A stretch of 64,000 bases of DNA from Paraflavitalea soli (GTDB taxonomy: Bacteria; Bacteroidota; Bacteroidia; Chitinophagales; Chitinophagaceae). Positions 3,914-64,000 of this stretch are shown piece after piece (the first letter of the stretch is position 1; each line of letters opens with the position of its first letter). The stretch spans positions 3,662,546 to 3,726,545 of the forward strand of contig NZ_CP032157.1 in NCBI RefSeq assembly GCF_003555545.1, read 5' to 3'. Both the position numbers and the translations under genes were made by a program. The notes beneath the pieces were generated by a model that saw only the letters and a program-made list of their open reading frames with translations, searched no databases and was not told the DNA's origin.

Positions 3914-3950
3914 AGAATAGAGAATACAGAATATAGAATACAGAATACAG
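3914..3950 (+). repeat. Heptanucleotide tandem repeat, AGAATAC type
   Basis: Five consecutive 7-bp units read agaatag, agaatac, agaatat, agaatac, agaatac. The tract starts just after the stop codon of the sigma-54 activator and lies ahead of, or inside, the 5' end of lptE. The same unit recurs at 6029-6060 and, inverted, at 6141-6174 and 14135-14201. Confidence 0.85.
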
Positions 3951-3981
3951 TAGCTCTTAGCGAAGCAACCAGCAACGGAAG

Positions 3982-4055
3982 GCTCGCAGCTCGTGGCTTA
4001 CAGCTCGTAACTGTATTGAAGCTCGCAGCTCGCAGCTCGTGGCTCGTAGCTGTAT
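3982..4055 (+). repeat. Heptanucleotide tandem repeat, GCTCGCA type, inside lptE 5' end
   Basis: Two blocks of 7-bp units (gctcgca, gctcgtg, gcttaca, gctcgta, then gctcgca, gctcgca, gctcgtg, gctcgta) separated by about 10 bp. The second block is read as part of the lptE signal peptide. A related tract, on the other strand, lies at 33209-33240. Confidence 0.8.
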
Positions 4056-4537
4056 TTGCGCTCTTCACCGGCTGCTATTCATTCAAGGATGTAAGTATTC
4101 CGCCTGCTGTTAAAACATTCCAGGTGGACCTGATCACCAATACAGCCCGCTATGTAAACCCCCAGCTGAGCCCGCAGATCACCGATAAGCTCCGGCAAAA
4201 GATCGTAGGCCAGACAAGGCTTTCGCCCGTGCGGGAGGGCGCCCACTATGAAATATCAGGTGTCATTACCGATTACAGCGTGAGCACCTCGGGTATCTCT
4301 CCCAATAACCAGGGACAGCAACAAGCCTCTATCAACCGGTTGACGGTAGGTATTAAAGTCGTATTAAAAAATACCCTGGATCCGAATGATCCCAAGACGA
4401 ATTTTGAAGCCAGTGTTTCCCGTAACTTCGACTACGACGCGAATTTATCGCTCACCCAGGCCGAACCACAATTGAATGAAACCATCATCAAGAATATGGT
4501 GGATGAAATGTTCAATCGTATTTTTTCAAACTGGTAA
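4016..4537 (+). CDS. lptE: LPS-assembly lipoprotein LptE
   Basis: Outer-membrane lipoprotein that plugs and helps LptD insert lipopolysaccharide. The mature part starts at the lipobox cysteine in LFTGCYSF and continues with the SIPPAVKTFQVDLITNTA and Q(I/L)TDKLRQKI segments usual for Bacteroidota LptE. The start is unclear. TTG at 4016 gives 173 residues and a near-ideal lipoprotein signal peptide (MKLAARSSWLVAVFALFTGC). The only nearby in-frame ATG (3896) overlaps the previous gene and would add about 40 residues coded by 7-bp repeats. An AAGGAG at 3904-3909 sits 7 bp before an in-frame ATA, which suggests the original start was altered. Its place between the sigma-54 gene and secG matches the conserved cluster. 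Confidence 0.8.
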   Translation: MKLAARSSWLVAVFALFTGCYSFKDVSIPPAVKTFQVDLITNTARYVNPQLSPQITDKLRQKIVGQTRLSPVREGAHYEISGVITDYSVSTSGISPNNQGQQQASINRLTVGIKVVLKNTLDPNDPKTNFEASVSRNFDYDANLSLTQAEPQLNETIIKNMVDEMFNRIFSNW

Positions 4538-4545
4538 TCCTTTTG

Positions 4546-5625
4546 ATGCAACAACATATTCACACGATTGTCAAGCACTTTTTCCAGAAAGACTCCCTGC
4601 AGGAGGTGCCCGAACAGGTACTGCAGCAGTTTACAGAAGACCATCCCTACTCTTCCGTAGGTCACTGGCTGCTGGCCAAAAAGGTACACGATACCGCACC
4701 GGATCGCGCTTCCGCGCAATCGGCCAATGCCGTAGCCTGGTTCACCAATCCCCTGTGGCTTCATTGGGCCCTGCAGGAGCATGAATTGGTGACAGAAACC
4801 CTGCTGATCCCTGCTACCCACAAAGAAGAACCCGTTGTAGCACGTGTTGCGGAGATCACAGAACCCGCCCCCCCTGCACCAGCAGAACCGGAAGTAGTTG
4901 AAAGGATGCAGGAAACTATGGCGCCCGAAGCCATTATAGATACTCTCGCGCCCCAGGTGGCGGTGGAAGAGGACGACCTCCTCGAAACAGAGATCATGAT
5001 ACCCGGCGTGTCGGAACCGGTGAGCCTTATTGAAGTAGCTCCTGCTCCTGTGCCCGAACCCGAGATAGAGACAGCGCCTGAGGCGAACCTTGAACCAGCA
5101 CCTGAGCCTGAAGCGATTGAAGCGTCGGCGCCTCCTGAACCTATAGAAGCACAGGCAACAGAAGCGCCTGCTGTTCCTGAACCATCCCCTGTTTCCCCCG
5201 TGGCATCCCTGACAGGCACTTTCAAACCCGTCATCAGCGAAACCGAAGAGCCCATTTTTGAGCCTTATCATACCATTGATTATTTTGCTTCCCAGGGCAT
5301 TAAACTGCGCCAGGAAGACTTTAAGGATAAACTGGGCTTACAGCTGAAAAGCTTTACCGAATGGCTGCGCAGCATGAAGCGGATAGCGCCCATAGCGATT
5401 GACCCGGTTGCCAACCCGTTTGATGAAAGCCTGCAGCAATCCATCCAGGAAAGTGCCGGGCATTCCGTAGAAGGTAAAGAAGTACTTACAGAAGCCATGG
5501 CCGAAGTGTGGCTCAAGCAGGGAAGCAAGCAAAAAGCAATTGCGATCTATGAGAAATTAAGTTTGCTCAATCCCGCCAAAAGCCCTTATTTTGTAGCCCG
5601 AATTGACCAAATAAAAGCATTGTGA
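4546..5625 (+). CDS. Conserved hypothetical protein with Pro/Glu-rich linker and TPR-like C terminus
   Basis: A 359-residue protein with no signal peptide or membrane segment. Residues about 1-85 form a helical N-terminal region (HIHTIVKHFFQKDSL, SSVGHWLLAKKVHD). Residues about 95-235 are a low-complexity linker rich in Pro, Glu and Ala. The C-terminal about 110 residues include a single TPR-like hairpin (AEVWLKQGSKQKAIAIYEKL, then NPAKS). Genes of this kind commonly sit between lptE and secG in Bacteroidota, but I know no assigned function. ATG at 4546 is 8 bp after the lptE stop; the TTG at 4543 is an unlikely alternative. The stop lies one base before the secG start, so the two are translationally close. 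Confidence 0.8.
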   Translation: MQQHIHTIVKHFFQKDSLQEVPEQVLQQFTEDHPYSSVGHWLLAKKVHDTAPDRASAQSANAVAWFTNPLWLHWALQEHELVTETLLIPATHKEEPVVARVAEITEPAPPAPAEPEVVERMQETMAPEAIIDTLAPQVAVEEDDLLETEIMIPGVSEPVSLIEVAPAPVPEPEIETAPEANLEPAPEPEAIEASAPPEPIEAQATEAPAVPEPSPVSPVASLTGTFKPVISETEEPIFEPYHTIDYFASQGIKLRQEDFKDKLGLQLKSFTEWLRSMKRIAPIAIDPVANPFDESLQQSIQESAGHSVEGKEVLTEAMAEVWLKQGSKQKAIAIYEKLSLLNPAKSPYFVARIDQIKAL

Positions 5626-5626
5626 T

Positions 5627-5962
5627 ATGATTTTGTTCCTGATCCTGATCATTGTAGCGAGTATAGCGATGGGCCTGTTCATCCTCATCCAGAATCCCAA
5701 GGGCGGTGGCCTGGCTGGTAATATTGCCGGTTTCAATTCCCAGTTCATGGGCGTAAAGCAAACCACGGATGTACTGGAAAAAGGCACCTGGATCATGGCA
5801 GTAGCCATTGCCGTGCTGAGTTTGTGTTCAGCTTTTTTCATTTCCGGTAGTTCTTCTGCCGGCGATGTGAAAGATTCCAACATCAGGCCTTCTACACAAC
5901 AAACAGCACCTGCAGCTACCCCACCCGCACCCGGCGGCACAACGGTACCTGCAACCAAATAA
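5627..5962 (+). CDS. secG: Preprotein translocase subunit SecG
   Basis: Small accessory subunit of the SecYEG channel in the inner membrane. The 111 residues contain two membrane helices (about 1-20 and 55-78) joined by the conserved cytoplasmic loop LIQNPKGGGLAGNIAG. The C-terminal tail is rich in Thr, Pro and Ala, as in related phyla. It follows the upstream gene with no real gap and ends the miaB-lptE-secG block, followed by a strong terminator. Confidence 0.93.
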   Translation: MILFLILIIVASIAMGLFILIQNPKGGGLAGNIAGFNSQFMGVKQTTDVLEKGTWIMAVAIAVLSLCSAFFISGSSSAGDVKDSNIRPSTQQTAPAATPPAPGGTTVPATK

Positions 5963-5985
5963 GCAGTTCCTTACTCAACATATTT

Positions 5986-6016
5986 AACCCTGTCAATAAT
6001 ATGGCAGGGTTTTTTG
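5986..6016 (+). terminator. Rho-independent terminator after secG
   Basis: The stem AACCCTG/CAGGGTT, extended by tCA/TGg, is followed by TTTTTT. It lies 24 bp after the secG stop. Confidence 0.85.
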
Positions 6017-6028
6017 TTATGTGAAAAC

Positions 6029-6174
6029 CAGAATATAGAAGACAGAATCCAGAATACAGAAGCGTTTGCTTCGACTGGTACTACCCTTTGCGCCAGACAG
6101 TGAGTCGCCGATAGCCAAAGGTTGCCCAAAGCGCGGCAGCCATTCTGTATTCTGTATTCTAAATTCTGTATTCT
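6029..6174. repeat. Inverted pair of AGAATAC heptad-repeat tracts
   Basis: The left arm (6029-6060) has units agaatat, agaagac, agaatcc and agaatac. The right arm (6141-6174) has the same family in the opposite orientation (attctgt, attctgt, attctaa, attctgt). About 80 bp separate them, including a small hairpin gaagc-gttt-gcttc at 6060-6074. The arms could pair, so the whole could fold as a long imperfect hairpin. It fills most of the secG-mltG gap. Confidence 0.75.
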
Positions 6175-14106: not shown

Positions 14107-14134
14107 ATATCCGTTTTCTTCAAATATTTTATTT

Positions 14135-14201
14135 GCTGTATTCCGGCTCCTGTATTCTATATTCTGTATTCTATATTCTGTATTCTGTATTCTGTATTCT
14201 T
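14135..14201 (-). repeat. Heptanucleotide tandem repeat, GTATTCT (AGAATAC) type
   Basis: About eight 7-bp units alternating attctgt and attctat. The tract fills the gap between the ankyrin gene start (14106) and the trmH stop (14200), just touching the trmH end. It is the longest tract of this type in the window. Confidence 0.85.
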
Positions 14202-38389: not shown

Positions 38390-38681
38390 AAACAAATGAT
38401 GATAGAGCCCGTTTATCAAGATTTTATTTTTGTTGTAAAACAACTGTTTGATGTGCAATTTTAGTCCAACAAAAATTTTACATAACCGTGCATAAAATGT
38501 TTTAGACTAGTTCAATAAAGAATAAATTGTAAGCTAAACAAATTAGGTATTGATATTGAATGCTTTCACCTAAATAGTCGCACAAAATCTCTAAACTTTT
38601 TAGCAAAGATTTTCATAAATGTACAACCCCGTTTTTGGCAGGAAAAATTTATCCCCTACTTTGTGTCCACAAAAAATAGAC
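38390..38681. other. Divergent AT-rich intergenic region
   Basis: About 290 bp of AT-rich DNA between the divergent WbqC and LEA-lipoprotein genes. TACTTTG at 38658-38664 may serve as a -7 element for the lipoprotein. Nothing else is evident. Confidence 0.4.
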
Positions 38682-39131
38682 ATGAAAAAAACGCTTCTAA
38701 TAGCCTTCTTCCCCATCCTGCTGATCGCCTGTGCCAAGCCAACCGGGTTCGATTACCTGGGTATCCGGAACATTAAAGTGGTCAAATTGGGGTTTAAGGA
38801 ATCGACCGTAGCGGCAGAAGTTGGCTACTATAATCCCAACAAATACCCGGTTACGATGAAGCGGGCGGAGGTGGATGTCTATGTCAACAACAGCTATTTT
38901 GGGCATAGTTTGCTGGACTCAACGATCAAGATCCCGCGGAAGGATACCTTCTATTTGCCGGTCACTTTGACTGTCAATATGTCAACAACGGCGATGAGTT
39001 TGCTGCAAAGTTTTGGTGGCGGCCAGGATGAGGTGCTCATCAAATTGGATGGAAAAGCCAGAATTGGGCGAGGTGGAATTTTCATTAATTACCCGATAAA
39101 GTATGAAGGGAAGCAAAAATTGCAGTTTTAA
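38682..39131 (+). CDS. LEA-type-2 (WHy-like) lipoprotein
   Basis: A 149-residue lipoprotein with lipobox LLIACAKP (Cys about 14). The body follows the LEA14/WHy pattern of alternating strands: NIKVVKLGFKESTVAAEVGY, YNPNKYPVTMKRAEVDVYVN, then a regularly spaced C-terminal beta part. The fold is found in stress-related proteins from plants to bacteria; its bacterial role is uncertain. ATG at 38682 gives the lipoprotein signal directly; the upstream ATG at 38619 would add 21 residues and is unlikely. It is the last gene before the 3-kb array. Confidence 0.82.
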   Translation: MKKTLLIAFFPILLIACAKPTGFDYLGIRNIKVVKLGFKESTVAAEVGYYNPNKYPVTMKRAEVDVYVNNSYFGHSLLDSTIKIPRKDTFYLPVTLTVNMSTTAMSLLQSFGGGQDEVLIKLDGKARIGRGGIFINYPIKYEGKQKLQF

Positions 39132-39478
39132 ATTTCTCGACCAAAGGTCTAAAAAGACCTAATCAAGTTGATAAAAAGGGCGCACCAATCAGGTCACAAA
39201 AGACGTACACAATACGAAAAGCAGGTCATATTAATTTCTGTTCAATTGTTTTCAGGAAGTTCAAACTACCCATTTTTGCTCCTACCTGACTGCCGGAAAA
39301 AGATATTCTTCAAAATTGAAATGCCCCATTTTTTATAAAATGGGGCATTCTTATGGATGGCCCTTTGGCCGGTTTTCAGCAAAAAGGGGTTGCAGAAAGG
39401 AGCTGGTTAAACCGTTCAATTTTCATTTCGGGTGAAAAATCCAGGTCTAAATAGCCCCAGATAAGCAGGTTGAGGTGT
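39132..39478. other. Gene-free spacer before the array
   Basis: About 350 bp with no credible gene. It contains the long hairpin at 39321-39348. No other motif stands out. Confidence 0.55.
39321..39348 (+). terminator. Perfect 12-bp hairpin, probable terminator
   Basis: ATGCCCCATTTT and AAAATGGGGCAT form an exact inverted repeat around TTAT. The position, 190 bp after the LEA-lipoprotein stop, is far for a terminator and the downstream T tract is weak. It could equally mark the left border of the array region. Confidence 0.55.
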
Positions 39479-41900
39479 GGTCATTTTTGACTCATCTCAA
39501 AAATGAGCCTGGTCGAAAAAACATCCTCTTTGGAGATGCATTATTCAAATTCTGGCCCTCAAAAGGCTGTAGAATGGCGGTCATTTTTGACGCTCCGATT
39601 TGACCAGGAATCGGCAGATTGTAAAATTATAGCTGATCTAAAAGAGGCAGTAGGGAGGTCAATTTTGCCTTAAAGATGATGGAGTATTGGAAGGCCGGGA
39701 GGGGTCATTTTTGACTTTCCGGATCACCGGTTGGAAGGTCCATTTCGTTCATGGTGGGGTGCTATGCCAATGTCATATTTGACATCATTTTGGGGCTTGC
39801 GTAAAGCAGATCTCTCCCTTATTTTTTTGTTATACGCGAGGGATAAGGGCTTCAAAAGGGCTACTGAGCAGGGCAATTTTGACCTTTGGCGGAGCGACAA
39901 AAAAAGGTCATTTTCGACAGCTACCCCAAGGTCTCCCGATCGCCCGGCGGGGATATTTTTCTCATTGTCCGATATTTAGCAGCTTTTGAAAGCGGCACCT
40001 CTGAAGGGCAACTTTGACTTTATCTGTCTTAGCTGACGACGGTCTATTTTGCCCCGGTCCAGGAGAACAGAATCTTCTTAAAAACCAGCGGCCTAAGGCA
40101 ATTATGACTTCCCGGATTTAAGCTTGAAAGGTCGTTTTTGACATTCTCATACGTCTTATTCAGAACAATTTTTCACTCATTTTTTCTGGTATACGGCAAG
40201 GATAAGGGCTTTAATGGGCCTGGTGAAGAGGACAACTTTGACCTATAGATAAGCTCGCAGAGGCGGGCAACGGAGGTCTACTTTGACGTTTTGGAGAGAG
40301 GGAAAATCTGCCTGAAAACCTCCCAGCCTATCCCTTTTTTGACTCTGGAGAGCAGCTCCTAAACGTCATCTTTGACTTTTGGCCAATGGTCCTGAAAGGT
40401 CGTTTTTGACAGTCATATACGTCTCGTTCAGAACAATTTTTCACTCATTTTTTCTGGTATACGGCAAGGATAAGGGCTTTAATGGGCCTGGTGAAGAGGA
40501 CAACTTTGACCTATAGATAGGCTAGCAGAGACGCGCAACGGAGGTCTACTTTGACGTTTTGGAGAGAGGGGAAATCTGCCTGAAAACCTTCTGACCTTGG
40601 CCCTTTTTTGACTCTTGGAGAGCAGCTCCTAAAGGTCATCTTTGACTTTTGGAAAAGGGACCTGAAGGGTCGTTTTTGACAGTGGCAAACGGCTCGTCCT
40701 GCGCAAATTCTCTTTCATTTTTGCCGGGACTAGAGCTTTGAAGGGCCTGGTGAGCGGGACAATTTTGACCTGCAGATGGGCGAGCAGAGAAGGGCGACGG
40801 AGGTCTATTTTGACGTTTTGGAGAGAGGGGAAATCTGCCTGAAAACCTCCCGGCCTACCCTTTTTTTGTCTCCTGAAAGCGTCACCCGACAGGTCATTTT
40901 AGACTCTTGGGGAAAAGACTTGGAAGGTCGTTTTTGACATCAAGCAAACAGGTAGCTTACATCAAATCCTGCCTCATTTTTCCCGGTAACGGTAAGGATA
41001 AGGGCTTCAGGCACCCATTTAGAATGGCAATTTTGACCTGCCTAAGAGCCGTCTTATCAGGTCATGTTTGACCAATATTGACAAGGTAAAATCTAGCTGG
41101 AAACCTTCCAGATTAAGGCTATTTTGACTCTTTACTGAAAGGAGAAATCTGCCTGTAAACCTCCCAGTCTACCCTTTTTAGCTCCCGGAAAATACCCTTT
41201 AAGAGGGCATTTTAGACAGCCGTAATAGTCCGCTCAGAACAAATTTTGTCGTTTTATTTCCGGTATAAACCAAGGATAAAGGCTTCATTGTCGCCATTGG
41301 GAGGGTTAATCCGGGCTATGGGTAGTAGAGTCATTTATGCCCTTTTTCAGCGCCAGGAAACCTTCCTGGCAACCGCTGGCCCCCCGGCCAATTATGACTT
41401 TCTGGGGAGCCCATCCCAAAGGGCATATTTGACCAGGCTGGCAAGGACAGTTGGGGCAGCAACTTACCCTATTTTGAAAGGATTTATTACCATGCAGGAG
41501 GCATAAACGGCTACTCGCTGAAGGACATCTTTGCCTTAGTCAACGGCACATTACAGTAAGTCAATTACGCCCTGTTTTAGAAAGAGGAAATTTACCTGGC
41601 AGGCTTCCCGCCTCCGGGCAATTATGACTGTCCGGGAAGCGGAATTCGGAGGGCATTTTTGACCAGTAAAGACGGTGCAATTAAAGAAGCCAGCACTACC
41701 CTATCTTAACAGGATTGCTGCCGTACGGGGACTCAAGACGGCACCCTCAGCGAAGGGCATTTTTGCCTCAGTCAGCAACTCTTCAAAATAAGTCAATTAC
41801 GTCCTGATGTAGCAGATGGAATTTTACCTGGCGGGCTCACCTTCTACGGGCAAATATGACTAGCTGCAGAGGCCTTTAACATGTGCAGTTTTGAGGTAGA
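39479..41900 (+). repeat. Satellite-like array of GGTCATTTTTGAC words in 270-bp and 230-bp tandem units
   Basis: About 38 copies of a degenerate word (RGGNCAWTTTTGAC) lie in 2.4 kb, all in the same orientation. Word spacings repeat as 100, 45, 56, 34, 34 bp within units beginning at about 40130, 40398, 40668 and 40926 (the first two match at roughly nine positions in ten; the third is 11 bp shorter in its first spacer). Older, more diverged material lies to the left (39479-40129). Two units of about 230 bp, with spacings of about 102, 36, 57 and 35, lie to the right (41431 and 41661). Distances cluster near 11n+1. No open frame is convincing. Flanking genes point towards the region from both sides. 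Confidence 0.85.
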
Positions 41901-42093
41901 AAAATGGAACGGAGCTGCAATCATTTTCCGCTTATTCAGCCATAATAACAGTAAATTTATAGAGGCTTTAGCGGCCTCCAGATCATCCCCAAAAGCGACC
42001 CAGATGATGACGATGCAGGTCTTTCTTTACTCCCTTTCGCGGCAGGTCTATTCACCTGTTTGCTCTCCTTCGGGCTCCGTTTAGCCCTTTCAC

Positions 42094-42191
42094 TTTACTT
42101 TCGGTTTACTTTAAGTTTACTTCAGGTTTACGTTCGGTTTACTCCCGGGTAGGCTAGTCCACGGCTGATATACGGCTGATGGTAGGCTGAT
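42094..42191 (+). repeat. 11-bp tandem repeats at the right flank of the array
   Basis: Units tttactttcgg, tttactttaag, tttacttcagg, tttacgttcgg and tttactcccgg are followed by acggctgatat, acggctgatgg and taggctgatct. Both blocks keep an 11-bp period, and the region lies about 190 bp to the right of the last array word. Confidence 0.8.
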
Positions 42192-42304
42192 CTATGGGGT
42201 TGCTACTATTACCAGACAGGCGTCGATCCTTTTATTGATTCCCGGCAGGATCCTCCAAAATCTGCCAAACTGCCAGCCTTCCAGGGGCATTCCAGGACAT
42301 AAAA

Positions 42305-42337
42305 AAACGACCATTTTCCAGCAGAAAATGGTCGTTT
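42305..42337 (-). terminator. Rho-independent terminator after HMA gene
   Basis: A 13-bp perfect stem AAACGACCATTTT/AAAATGGTCGTTT with a 7-nt loop is followed by a T run on the minus strand. Confidence 0.88.
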
Positions 42338-42372
42338 CAAACCTATTGTATCCAGGTCTTTTAATACTAATA

Positions 42373-42735
42373 TCAGTGCTCCCCGCCGCCGCCATCTTCC
42401 GGCTTTTTACAGCATTTGGGCAGCTTTTTGTACGCTTCTGCGTCGGCAGTTACATCATCCGCATCATACCCTGCATTGGCAATACCTGCTTTAATATTCT
42501 CCACATTGGTGCGCTCAGCGACAAAAGTAACCTTGGTCACTTTCTTTTTATAATCCACATTCACTTTTTGCACACCGTCTTCGCGCTTCAGGAATTCTTC
42601 AATGCGCTTTTTGCAGCTTTCGCACTGAACGGTAGGGGTTTTAATGGCGACTGTCTGGACTCCTTTCTTAACTTGTCCAAATCCTGTGGTCAGGATGCCG
42701 GTGATGGCTACAGCCAATAGAAATAGCTTCTTCAT
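42373..42735 (-). CDS. Exported heavy-metal-associated (HMA) domain protein
   Basis: A 120-residue protein with signal peptide ending GFGQ. The HMA ferredoxin-like domain spans about 27-95 with the metal-binding pair Cys38-x-x-Cys41 (QCESCKKRI). The C-terminal tail has a CC pair (KCCKKPEDGGGGEH) and a terminal His that could also bind metal. It is probably a periplasmic copper or zinc chaperone, but the metal is not certain. No transporter gene is adjacent. A TATATTTG box is at 42752-42759 on the minus strand. Confidence 0.85.
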   Translation of the reverse strand: MKKLFLLAVAITGILTTGFGQVKKGVQTVAIKTPTVQCESCKKRIEEFLKREDGVQKVNVDYKKKVTKVTFVAERTNVENIKAGIANAGYDADDVTADAEAYKKLPKCCKKPEDGGGGEH

Positions 42736-59535: not shown

Positions 59536-59648
59536 CGGCAATCAGCAGTCGGCAGTCGGCAGTCGGCAATCGTGAATCGGCAGTCGGCAGTCGGCAGCTC
59601 CCGCTGTGACGGGACAAGCTGTTACTCAGCAATCGGCAGTCGGCAATG
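59534..59648 (+). repeat. Heptad repeat, TCGGCAG type (large tract)
   Basis: Three or more blocks of the unit (cggcagt, cggcagt, cggcaat) are separated by short unrelated DNA, including a small palindromic cccgctgtgacggg. The tract fills most of the gap between the META and DUF2452 genes. Confidence 0.8.
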
Positions 59649-61214: not shown

Positions 61215-64000
61215 TTATTTAATGCTTACCAATACATTGATCTTACCTATACCCTGGGTGTTGTAATCTTGCAGGGCTTTGCCTATTACCTGGCCGATCT
61301 TTACTTTATCGGGATCGGCTTTCATAGCTACGCCGCTGAGGGAGGAGGTAACGATGAGGTCGCCTCTTTTGATGGCGCCACCCTCCATACATACTTTGGT
61401 AGGAATGACACCTACAACGCCCATGGGCACTTTGCCTACGAGATCGCTGTCGATGTCTTCTTCCGTGAGCAATACGCCGGGTTTGGTAGCATATACACCT
61501 GCCACGAGCGTAGAGTAAGCACCGGCAGATTTTTCAACAGCCCTGTCTTTGTCGGTAGCTATCACCAGTACATCGCCCGGTTCGTATTGAGTAGTAGTGC
61601 CTGTAACATCAAATGCTTCTGCAATATCGGCGCCACTGTTCTGTGTACCGCCGTTGAAGAATCCTCTGCCTGCTTTGTTGATGCGGGCTACGTTGACAGA
61701 TGCGCTCTGAAATACCGCAACACTTCCCGAAGCACCCTGGTGATTAATGAGCAGGGTATTTCCCGTACCAGTGGTGGTAACGTGTACAACAGGCTGAGAG
61801 TTCGCATTGTTGAAGTTGGCGAAGCGGCCAGCTTTACCCGTGCCAAAGTTGGGTATGAACCCAGAGATAGCATTTCCACTACCATCGCAGGAGGCTTCTA
61901 CGCCATCGCCTGTACCACCGGCATTGGCGGTGATGCCATTGCCGGTACCTTCTGTGAGGGCCAGTACGGCCGGGCCGTTGCCAGCAGGATTGGAAGAATA
62001 GAACAGACCTGCATAACCACCTGTACCAGATGACTGGCCGTATATACCTGCCGTACCAAAGTTGGCGAACATGGAATTTACCTCCCCTTTTACTGCCGGA
62101 GAGGTACCTGTAGTACGATCTACCTTGAAATTACCGGCCGTACCATTACCTACTGTTTTCACGGTGATCACCTCGTTGGTATTGTTTTCATTGAAGATTT
62201 CAAAGCGTCCGGCACGGCCGGTAGAGAAGGTGGGAACCCATGCATACAGCGCATTGCCTGCTCCATCAATATTGGTCTCTACACCATTTCCGTCTTTACC
62301 GGCATTGGCGGTGATGGCATTACCGTTGCCATCTGTCAGGGCTATCAGTGAGGCACCATTACCGGCCGGGTTGGATGCATAGAAGAGACCTGCACGACCA
62401 CCAGTTCCGGAAGAAATACCAAATACACCCGCAGCACCGAAGTTGCCGAAGATGGTATTTACCTCCGCTCTTACTGCAGCACCTACGCTGTTGGTATTGT
62501 CGAGGAAGAAGGAGGAAGCATTACCGAGTGTATTGTCTGGGATGTTACCATTGCTGTTGGATGCTACCTCCAGGATATTGGCTTCGGTATTGGTCTGATT
62601 GAAGTTTTCAAACCGGCCGGCACGTCCGGTGCTGTTATTGAGGCCAACCTGTCCGAGTACACCTATACCGGTATTACTGGTATTGGTGGCTATAAAACCT
62701 CGTACACCATAACCGCCGCCATCATTGCGACCTACTACGGCGCCTGCTATATCACTGGTGGTACGGCCCACAACGGCTTCACCACCGCCGTTGTTGTCGC
62801 CCACTACACCTGCCGAAGTTTGTTGACTTGAAATCCCATGCACGGCAAATCCTGCACCAGTGGAGCTTCTTACCCCTGCCCCATTGCCTGTTGTAGTTAC
62901 ATTGATCACGGTACCATTACCCACCGTATTGGCAACCAGTACGCTATTGTTATTGGCATTATTGAAAATAGATATGTTGGCAGGAATGCCATTGTTGGAA
63001 GTAGCATTCAAACCAGTTCCGGTATTACTGTTGGCATATACCCCATAACCATTGGCCGTAGCATTTCCGTAAACACCCAAACCGTTAGGGGTAGTGCCAT
63101 ATACGCCCCAACCCGAACCGGCCTGCGATCCGTATACCCCTACACCCAGTCCACCGGTACCATTATTAATACCGCGTACGGCTGAAGAAAAGCCACCCGG
63201 AGAAGTAGAAGATACGATACCCCGTACAGCACTGATATTACTGGTAGTAGTATTGTTCACACCTTCTACAGATGTGCCGTCGCCATCGTTGGTGATGGAA
63301 AATAATGTAGCTGCACTGTTCTCTGTTGTAACATAGGGCAGGGTGAAGCCACCGCCGCCAATGGCAGCGGGAGCCCAGTTAACACCATCAAACTTTAAGA
63401 CCTGTCCGGCTGCCGGTACCGCAGCTGATACGGCTACATTCTGGAGCTTTGCCACGCCGGGATTGGGGTAATTGCCACTCAGGTCGCCACCCGCAGGACC
63501 ACTGGGCGGCAGGGTCACACCGGGAGCTATCTTAATTTGTGTTATAGAAGCATCTGCCAGTTTTGCTGTTGTAATGTTTGCATCTACTACTTTAGCCGTA
63601 GTCACTGCATCGTCTGCTAGTTTTGCAGTAGTAATATTCGCATCCACTACTTTGGCAGTGGTTACTGCATTGTCGGCGAGCTTCGGTGTAGTAACGGAAC
63701 CATCAGTCAGCTTGGCAGTAGTAATATTAGCATCCATTACCTTGGCAGTTGTTACTGCATTGTCAGCGATCTTAGGAGTCGTAACGGAGCCATCAGCCAG
63801 CTTGGCTGTGGTAATATTGGCATCCATTACCTTGGCAGTAGTCACTGCATTGTCGGCGATCTTTGGAGTTGTAACTGAGCCATCAGCCAGCTTGGCTGTG
63901 GTGATATTGGCGTCAACTACTTTAGCAGTAGTCACTGCATTGTCGGCGAGTTTGGAAGTAGTGACGGAGCCATCAGCCAGCTTGGCTGTAGTAATATTGG
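61215..64000 (-). CDS. Large decapeptide-repeat surface protein, C-terminal part (partial)
   Basis: The open frame runs off the right edge; over 920 residues are visible. The N-terminal visible part is a tandem array of 10-residue units (NITTAKLADG, SVTTPKIADN, AVTTAKVMDA), which repeat as a 90-bp DNA unit. A GGDLSGNYPNPGVA linker comes next, typical of fibre-like proteins. Many GVYG/GRAGRF/NGNAI-type Gly/Asn-rich strands (about 200-720) look like a beta-helix. The C terminus (GADIAEAFDVTGTTTQYEPG, VVGVIPTKV) is a globular head found in Bacteroidota tail-fibre-like proteins. No type IX sorting domain is seen. It is probably a surface fibre or adhesin. Confidence 0.85.
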   Translation of the reverse strand, partial: NITTAKLADGSVTTSKLADNAVTTAKVVDANITTAKLADGSVTTPKIADNAVTTAKVMDANITTAKLADGSVTTPKIADNAVTTAKVMDANITTAKLTDGSVTTPKLADNAVTTAKVVDANITTAKLADDAVTTAKVVDANITTAKLADASITQIKIAPGVTLPPSGPAGGDLSGNYPNPGVAKLQNVAVSAAVPAAGQVLKFDGVNWAPAAIGGGGFTLPYVTTENSAATLFSITNDGDGTSVEGVNNTTTSNISAVRGIVSSTSPGGFSSAVRGINNGTGGLGVGVYGSQAGSGWGVYGTTPNGLGVYGNATANGYGVYANSNTGTGLNATSNNGIPANISIFNNANNNSVLVANTVGNGTVINVTTTGNGAGVRSSTGAGFAVHGISSQQTSAGVVGDNNGGGEAVVGRTTSDIAGAVVGRNDGGGYGVRGFIATNTSNTGIGVLGQVGLNNSTGRAGRFENFNQTNTEANILEVASNSNGNIPDNTLGNASSFFLDNTNSVGAAVRAEVNTIFGNFGAAGVFGISSGTGGRAGLFYASNPAGNGASLIALTDGNGNAITANAGKDGNGVETNIDGAGNALYAWVPTFSTGRAGRFEIFNENNTNEVITVKTVGNGTAGNFKVDRTTGTSPAVKGEVNSMFANFGTAGIYGQSSGTGGYAGLFYSSNPAGNGPAVLALTEGTGNGITANAGGTGDGVEASCDGSGNAISGFIPNFGTGKAGRFANFNNANSQPVVHVTTTGTGNTLLINHQGASGSVAVFQSASVNVARINKAGRGFFNGGTQNSGADIAEAFDVTGTTTQYEPGDVLVIATDKDRAVEKSAGAYSTLVAGVYATKPGVLLTEEDIDSDLVGKVPMGVVGVIPTKVCMEGGAIKRGDLIVTSSLSGVAMKADPDKVKIGQVIGKALQDYNTQGIGKINVLVSIK
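63560..64000 (-). repeat. 90-bp tandem repeats encoding decapeptides
   Basis: Units of 30 codons (three decapeptides of type xTTxKxxDxx) recur along the gene, with some shortened 20-codon units near 63560-63650. Such tracts can change copy number by slippage or recombination. Confidence 0.85.

Follow-up and report, generated by a model that had tools for sequence, protein, structure and literature searches.

The window analysed here is a 64,000-nucleotide stretch at positions 3,662,546-3,726,545 of the Paraflavitalea soli genome, which is a single contig of 8.44 Mb. It contains a gene-free gap with about 40 palindromic sites over about 2.7 kb. This array is real and far above chance. Its word, the spacing of the two arms, the helical phase of the sites, and its place on the chromosome are kept in five species of the genus; the spacers turn over and units have been duplicated. 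There is an even chance that the array is a DNA-level architectural platform for a dimeric protein that builds a large nucleoprotein structure. The features of the locus, in window coordinates, are as follows.

38679..39131, + strand: left flanking gene, LEA_2 (PF03168), directed into the array
39146..41895, + strand: palindromic site array, consensus GGTC-A-W-T-T-T-T-GACC, with the T-rich core mostly on the + strand
39146..39205: sites 1 and 2, at 39146 (GGTCTAAAAAGACC) and 39192, 46 bp apart and directly after the LEA stop
39323..39346, + strand: terminator-like hairpin after the LEA gene, found by eye and absent from the hairpin scan list
40129..40924, + strand: three tandem units, starting at 40129, 40397, and 40667
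41420..41881, + strand: two diverged units of 230 and 232 bp, a non-integer count of 11.2-bp turns
41890..42150: right margin, a dispersed element with an 11-bp tandem block (TTTACTTNNGG-like) at 42094-42143
42304..42338, - strand: terminator-like hairpin after the HMA gene, 16 pairs
42373..42735, - strand: right flanking gene, HMA domain (PF00403), directed into the array

The initial annotation had placed a gene-free array at 39479-41900, between two genes pointing towards it. The array and the convergence of its flanks, LEA_2 (+) and HMA (-), were confirmed; the start was set too late, since the first palindrome lies at 39146, 15 bp past the LEA stop codon. No ORF inside the array (ATG, GTG, or TTG starts) is longer than 86 aa, and two of the longest have no match in Pfam, in keeping with the reported absence of genes. 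Among the five genus genomes (G000-G004), G002 and G003 have an initial site pair 46 bp apart at a near-identical distance from the LEA stop, G004 has only the first site of this pair, and in G001 the initial pair is 22 bp apart and located further on. A hairpin scan of the region returned seven terminator-like sites, against 5.6 expected in shuffles, with that at 42304..42338 having by far the longest stem.

Repeat units of about 258-270 bp, and of about 230 bp in the right part, had also been described, and both were recovered: the former at 268 and 259 bp, and the latter at 230-232 bp. In a 216-nt comparison, the copies of the former have identities of 92 % and 65 % to the first. Measured between corresponding sites, the three tandem units span 268, 270, and 258 bp, about 23-24 turns of 11.2 bp. 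The array sequence itself occurs at a single place in its own genome; a second copy exists for the right margin only, where the dispersed element (window 41890-42150; L002 1320-1570) has a partial copy of 70 bp at 6.079 Mb. Blocks that also look 11-bp periodic were seen at L087 16440-16560, at L148 8600-8680, and towards the right-hand end of the gap in G002.

On the + strand of 39400-42000, RGGNCAWTTTTGAC has 23, 33, and 39 matches at up to one, two, and three mismatches, respectively, compared with means of 0.02, 0.33, and 2.8 and largest values of 1, 3, and 10 in 500 first-order simulations. The count at up to three mismatches agrees with the approximately 38 degenerate same-strand copies of the initial annotation, and the 23 matches at up to one mismatch, for 0.02 expected, dispose of the objection that the repeat structure might not exceed chance. 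For the whole gap of this genome there are 33 sites at up to two mismatches and 43 by matrix score (at least 8 bits, 39000-42400, with a matrix trained on these and the relatives' sites). In the complete genome, the 84 matches of RGGNCAWTTTTGAC at up to one mismatch are not above those of a reversed-pattern control (90), but 23 of them, including all four exact ones, are inside the array, and no second cluster exists among the other 61. Across 884 contiguous kb, the array has 34 sites in two adjacent 2.5-kb bins and every other bin has four or fewer. Likewise, 56 further 20-kb samples (8 of which overlap the 884-kb stretch) contain at most four sites per 2.5 kb. In total, approximately 1.84 Mb (22 %) of the genome was read.

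The right half of the word, TTTTGAC, had been taken for its main constant part; instead, the word is a full 14-bp palindrome, GGTC-W6-GACC. Its arm spacing is rigid, with 80 arm pairs at W6 in the five gaps and none at W3-5 or W7-10. In 144 aligned sites from the five genomes, an A precedes the palindrome in 56 % and a T trails it in 49 %. The half-sites are 10 bp apart centre to centre, which is one helical turn and a distance common in dimeric helix-turn-helix sites. The exact palindrome is found at 37 places in the five genomes, 24 of these inside the gaps, and all seven genome-wide places of GGTCAWTTTTGACC are inside the gaps. Of the 154 sites with no more than two mismatches, 116 have their higher score in the + orientation (G000, 28 of 33; G002, 25 of 31; G004, 28 of 30; G003, 21 of 33; G001, 14 of 27), which gives the array a polarity that is clear in four genomes and weak in G001.

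Adjacent site spacings cluster at 35, 46, 56-57, 78, 89, and 100-101 bp. The repeated units behind the spacing pattern noted in the initial annotation are present, although quantisation at about 11.2 bp had been missed. The 125 pooled adjacent spacings (those above 150 bp and the sites of two duplicated units of the P. soli genome left out) fit best to a period of 11.20 bp, with a mean cosine of 0.67 against a null maximum of 0.27. Taken singly at 11.2 bp, the value observed in each genome was reached by none of 5000 jittered sets. In the all-pairs test with a free period, G000 peaks at 11.2 and G003 at 11.35 (0 of 1000 null sets each), the values of G002 and G001 are reached by 4 and 5 of 1000 null sets, and G004 peaks at 9.15, off the 11.2-bp period. 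Adjacent sites lie at multiples of about 11.2 bp and so share one helical face.

The same period is present in base composition. A+T content in 400-bp windows of the five gaps peaks at 11.10-11.35 bp with a power of 5.4-8.9, compared with 0.9-1.75 at 10.5 bp and with a mean of 2.06 and maximum of 3.37 in 336 control segments from the P. soli genome. When the sites are masked, the 11.2-bp signal falls to 2.8-4.3 in four genomes and vanishes in G001, so the sites themselves carry most of the A+T phasing. No other 2-kb stretch in the 884 contiguous kb is phased as strongly as the array (mean power 11.1; runner-up 4.8). Single 400-bp windows elsewhere in the samples reach a power of 15.2, and one 615-bp non-coding stretch (L087), from a list containing duplicates (8 of 56 pieces overlap the 884-kb stretch), reaches 13.5. 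Since short phased stretches occur elsewhere, it is kilobase length that sets the array apart.

A search of relatives, as the initial annotation had proposed, located the array in all four other genus genomes compared, and thus in five out of five, in the same convergent gap of 2.5-3.3 kb from an LEA-type to an HMA-domain gene. The gene order NUDIX, pyrE, HMA, gap, LEA, WbqC is common to all five. Locus L107 (Paraflavitalea sp. CAU 1676), whose contig equals that of G003 in length, belongs to the genus itself and was excluded as a sixth genome. Allowing two mismatches at most, the gaps contain 33, 31, 30, 33, and 27 sites, where shuffles have means of 0.35-0.54 and a maximum of 3; by matrix score they contain 32-43. 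The flanking LEA, HMA, pyrE, and NUDIX proteins are 75-94 % identical across the genus and WbqC is 69-75 % identical. Comparison of the gaps between species by blastn aligns nothing beyond their terminator-like ends and a small number of segments 20-116 bp long. A PKD protein (about 80 % identity) is encoded near the gap in two of the four relatives.

Other genera were surveyed through the HMA protein, giving at least 58 named loci, among these 40 with LEA nearby, one being L107. Among the matches listed, 30 of the 39 LEA and HMA loci outside the genus have gaps of 28-215 bp and nine have gaps of 0.66-3.1 kb, three from Niastella or Longitalea and six from Chitinophaga; by eye, parts of the long Chitinophaga gaps L123, L142, and L148 look coding. 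None of the 57 other-genus loci among the matches listed has more than three sites per 2.5 kb, and a motif search of Chitinophaga, Niastella, and Flavisolibacter gaps returned no dominant word. There is a mild excess in Chitinophaga pinensis L148, where a stretch with tandem copies has 10 sites scoring 6 bits or more (null maximum 5) and 5 scoring 8 bits or more (null maximum 4). Phasing was found in the same place without the palindrome word in Chitinophaga gaps L148, L142, L140, and L144 (10.95-11.05 bp; power 9.4-14.8), in segments that, as for Niastella, were chosen after viewing the sequence, and with the power of L148 inflated by tandem copies. Niastella L112 and L164 have phasing power of up to 5.0, and the L114 and L137 gaps are unphased at 11 bp. 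Phased DNA near LEA and HMA genes thus has a broader distribution than the palindrome, whose array is known here from this genus only. Kilobase, largely non-coding stretches with strong phasing of about 11 bp and no dense palindrome were also seen in Chitinophaga and Flavisolibacter at L128 7850-9200, L151 8500-9320, and L148 8450-10650; in L128 the phased non-coding stretch is on the other side of LEA, and in L151 it is beyond HMA.

Away from the array, 31 stretches with exact or near-exact sites from the five genomes, a set that omits G001:C6:718500-723700 (L167), G000:871350, G002:C64:2579, and G002:C91:50345, have no shared target; they show weak paralogy (24-44 % identity) and no orthologous gene or neighbourhood. 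With no orthologous gene common to these sites, no autoregulated factor is seen. L167 adjoins the array and has two exact palindromes. Six of the eleven off-array exact palindromes are outside ORFs of at least 90 aa, therefore other targets are possible. In 25 IMG/VR contigs with a site pair there is no array, the maximum being seven sites in 2.5 kb (L266). A family of viral contigs (L244, L245, L247, L250, L251, L255-L258, L260-L262, L264) has two to three GGTCA-W4-TGACC-like palindromes with spacings of 22 and 62 bp. In L245, L261, and L262 these precede a small ORF and a large ORF that reads as terminase-like, and may be an operator or origin. Similar palindromes at L266 5430-5610, L249 6488, and L259 381, reminiscent of iterons, are inside genes that on reading resemble phage replication organisers.

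Several other explanations were weighed against a protein platform. As RNA, the palindrome would be a stem of 4-5 bp, and this and the polarity of the array, clear in four of five genomes, would suit a long RNA with serial small hairpins. Complementary arm pairs among the 154 sites, observed against independence, number 78/82.4, 108/112.4, 89/85.6, 76/73.6, and 31/54.1, so there is no clear covariation excess at any of the five position pairs, as the initial annotation had judged from a left half varying without compensating change. The loop length is invariant, and no Rfam match reaches its gathering score, with five weak hits far below. An RNA is highly improbable, and the earlier preference for a DNA site platform is upheld by rigid arm spacing, helical phasing, lack of covariation, and presence in all five genomes. 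A relic of mobile-element ends had been put forward as well. The array has no blastn match to phage or plasmid DNA, the two tested internal ORFs have no Pfam match, and its syntenic place is fixed, so the mobile-element reading is unsupported. Functionless satellite DNA is another contender, in which slippage and unequal exchange spread units and the word persists because recent copies have yet to decay. The array has the tandem units with lineage-specific duplication expected of a satellite (268, 259, and 230 bp in the P. soli genome, 293 bp in G004, and about 91 bp in G003). The suggestion of a selfish satellite is nevertheless weakened, and a functionless satellite is unlikely to explain the locus, as word, arm spacing, phase, and place are kept across five species with barely alignable spacers, and decay would not leave the palindrome confined to W6.

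An alternative centromere or replication-terminus site is suggested by the distance of the locus from dnaA, 0.42-0.45 of the circle in three complete chromosomes; in the same chromosomes it is 0.28-0.31 of the circle from parS, and because the two distances disagree neither origin nor terminus can be claimed. Each genus genome has one high-scoring ParB (PF17762), with two weaker matches in G003. The parS sequence GTTYCACGTGRAAC, from which GGTC-W6-GACC differs, occurs elsewhere, twice in each of the five genomes (control 0). A replacement centromere was therefore dropped. For a terminus, GC skew, patchy in the 884 kb scanned, and gene orientation have no clear switch, and no convincing dif was found there, the Escherichia coli dif sequence matching at best at 19 of 28 positions. 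Either role is very unlikely. In G059 (Chitinophaga sp. E66), the dnaA match at 108782-109266 is broken into two parts, of which one contains an in-frame TAG; this may reflect a sequencing error. The phased A/T could instead make the locus a loading zone for a topoisomerase (gyrase) or a plectoneme pin, with the palindrome as a local form. E. coli gyrase site flanks have 10.75-bp periodic GC content (PMC6379681), plectonemes are pinned by intrinsic curvature (PMC6301789), and the four Chitinophaga gaps are phased in the same place without the word. However, the gyrase motif is degenerate and 130 bp long and would not lead one to expect a rigid palindrome, most of the 11.2-bp signal is lost once the sites are masked, and the Chitinophaga segments carry the selection and tandem copies described above; a topological element of this kind is improbable. 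Dozens of sites at a single locus might also soak up a regulator or replication initiator, and some phage contigs have like palindromes, either in groups of two or three, where distances of 22 or 62 bp are frequent, or within replication-like genes. Titration does not need helical phase, though, and no second conserved target set was found among the off-array stretches compared, which makes a decoy array quite unlikely.

Known systems resemble the array in part. Iteron arrays of phage and plasmid origins also have repeated sites in phase, and similar words are present in genes of L266, L249, and L259 that read as replication-like; the array differs in having about 40 sites, in being chromosomal and syntenic, and in that no initiator gene is seen alongside. 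Like parS and ParB, it consists of dyad sites clustered at one chromosomal address with a dimeric binder expected, but the sequence is different, and the array has numerous sites in helical phase. For Fis, an E. coli nucleoid protein, phased sites at rRNA promoters act jointly; Fis sites are scattered and are not known to form a 2.7-kb array. Fis bends DNA, and its sites have G/C ends, a pyrimidine-purine step in each half, an A/T-rich centre, and a preference for A/T outside (PMC4784862), site features that the array shares. The Fis core is 15 bp, however, and the array core is 14 bp: the Fis-type core GNTY-W7-RANC has no matches in the five gaps at W7 and 30 at W6. Being one base shorter and without a W7 form, the array was not filed as Fis. 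In DNA gyrase sites (the genome-wide motif and Mu SGS), A/T and G/C follow the turns of the helix, as they do in the array, and serve DNA wrapping (PMC6379681); these sites cover about 130 bp with a period of 10.75 and no palindromic word, compared with kilobases, 11.2 bp, and a rigid palindrome. The genome-wide 11-bp A/T periodicity known as the 'structural code' has the same period as the array and is commonly linked to negative supercoiling, but is described in PMC4132750 as genome-wide and mainly coding, whereas the array is one intense non-coding locus. The titles and abstract openings returned by a literature search contain no description of such an array.

A rigid palindrome on one helical face, in a gene-free convergent gap where the rest turns over, fits a platform for protein. 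Each site would be bound by a putative dimeric protein of helix-turn-helix type, which may narrow or bend the A/T core. Neighbouring dimers on the same face could jointly curve the negatively supercoiled DNA, or wrap it, so that one large complex forms at a single chromosomal address. Such a complex might serve local nucleoid folding, supercoil pinning, or segregation or anchoring independent of parS. A period of 11.2 bp is obtained when 10.5 bp is unwound by about 6 %, which is a typical degree of negative supercoiling, if this is taken up as twist. A more specific form of this proposal is possible but doubtful: a bacterial counterpart of a centromere-like satellite, in which a fast-evolving array at one address per chromosome keeps only its palindrome and phase, the dimeric protein wraps about 3 kb into a single defined particle organising or anchoring the chromosome independently of ParABS, and some related genera keep phased DNA in the same location with another binding code. 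A syntenic array of kilobase scale in which only site and helical phase persist would give bacteria an example of satellite-like evolution under function, and with its 11.2-bp register the contribution of supercoiling in vivo to protein assembly could be tested directly at one locus.

Other repeats in the window include 7-bp tandem repeats (AGAATAC/CTGTATT, CGGCAGT) at 3914-6174, 14125-14200, and 59536-59597. Tandem repeats of 60 and 90 bp occupy 63553-64000, where the window ends, and may belong to a gene for a repetitive protein.
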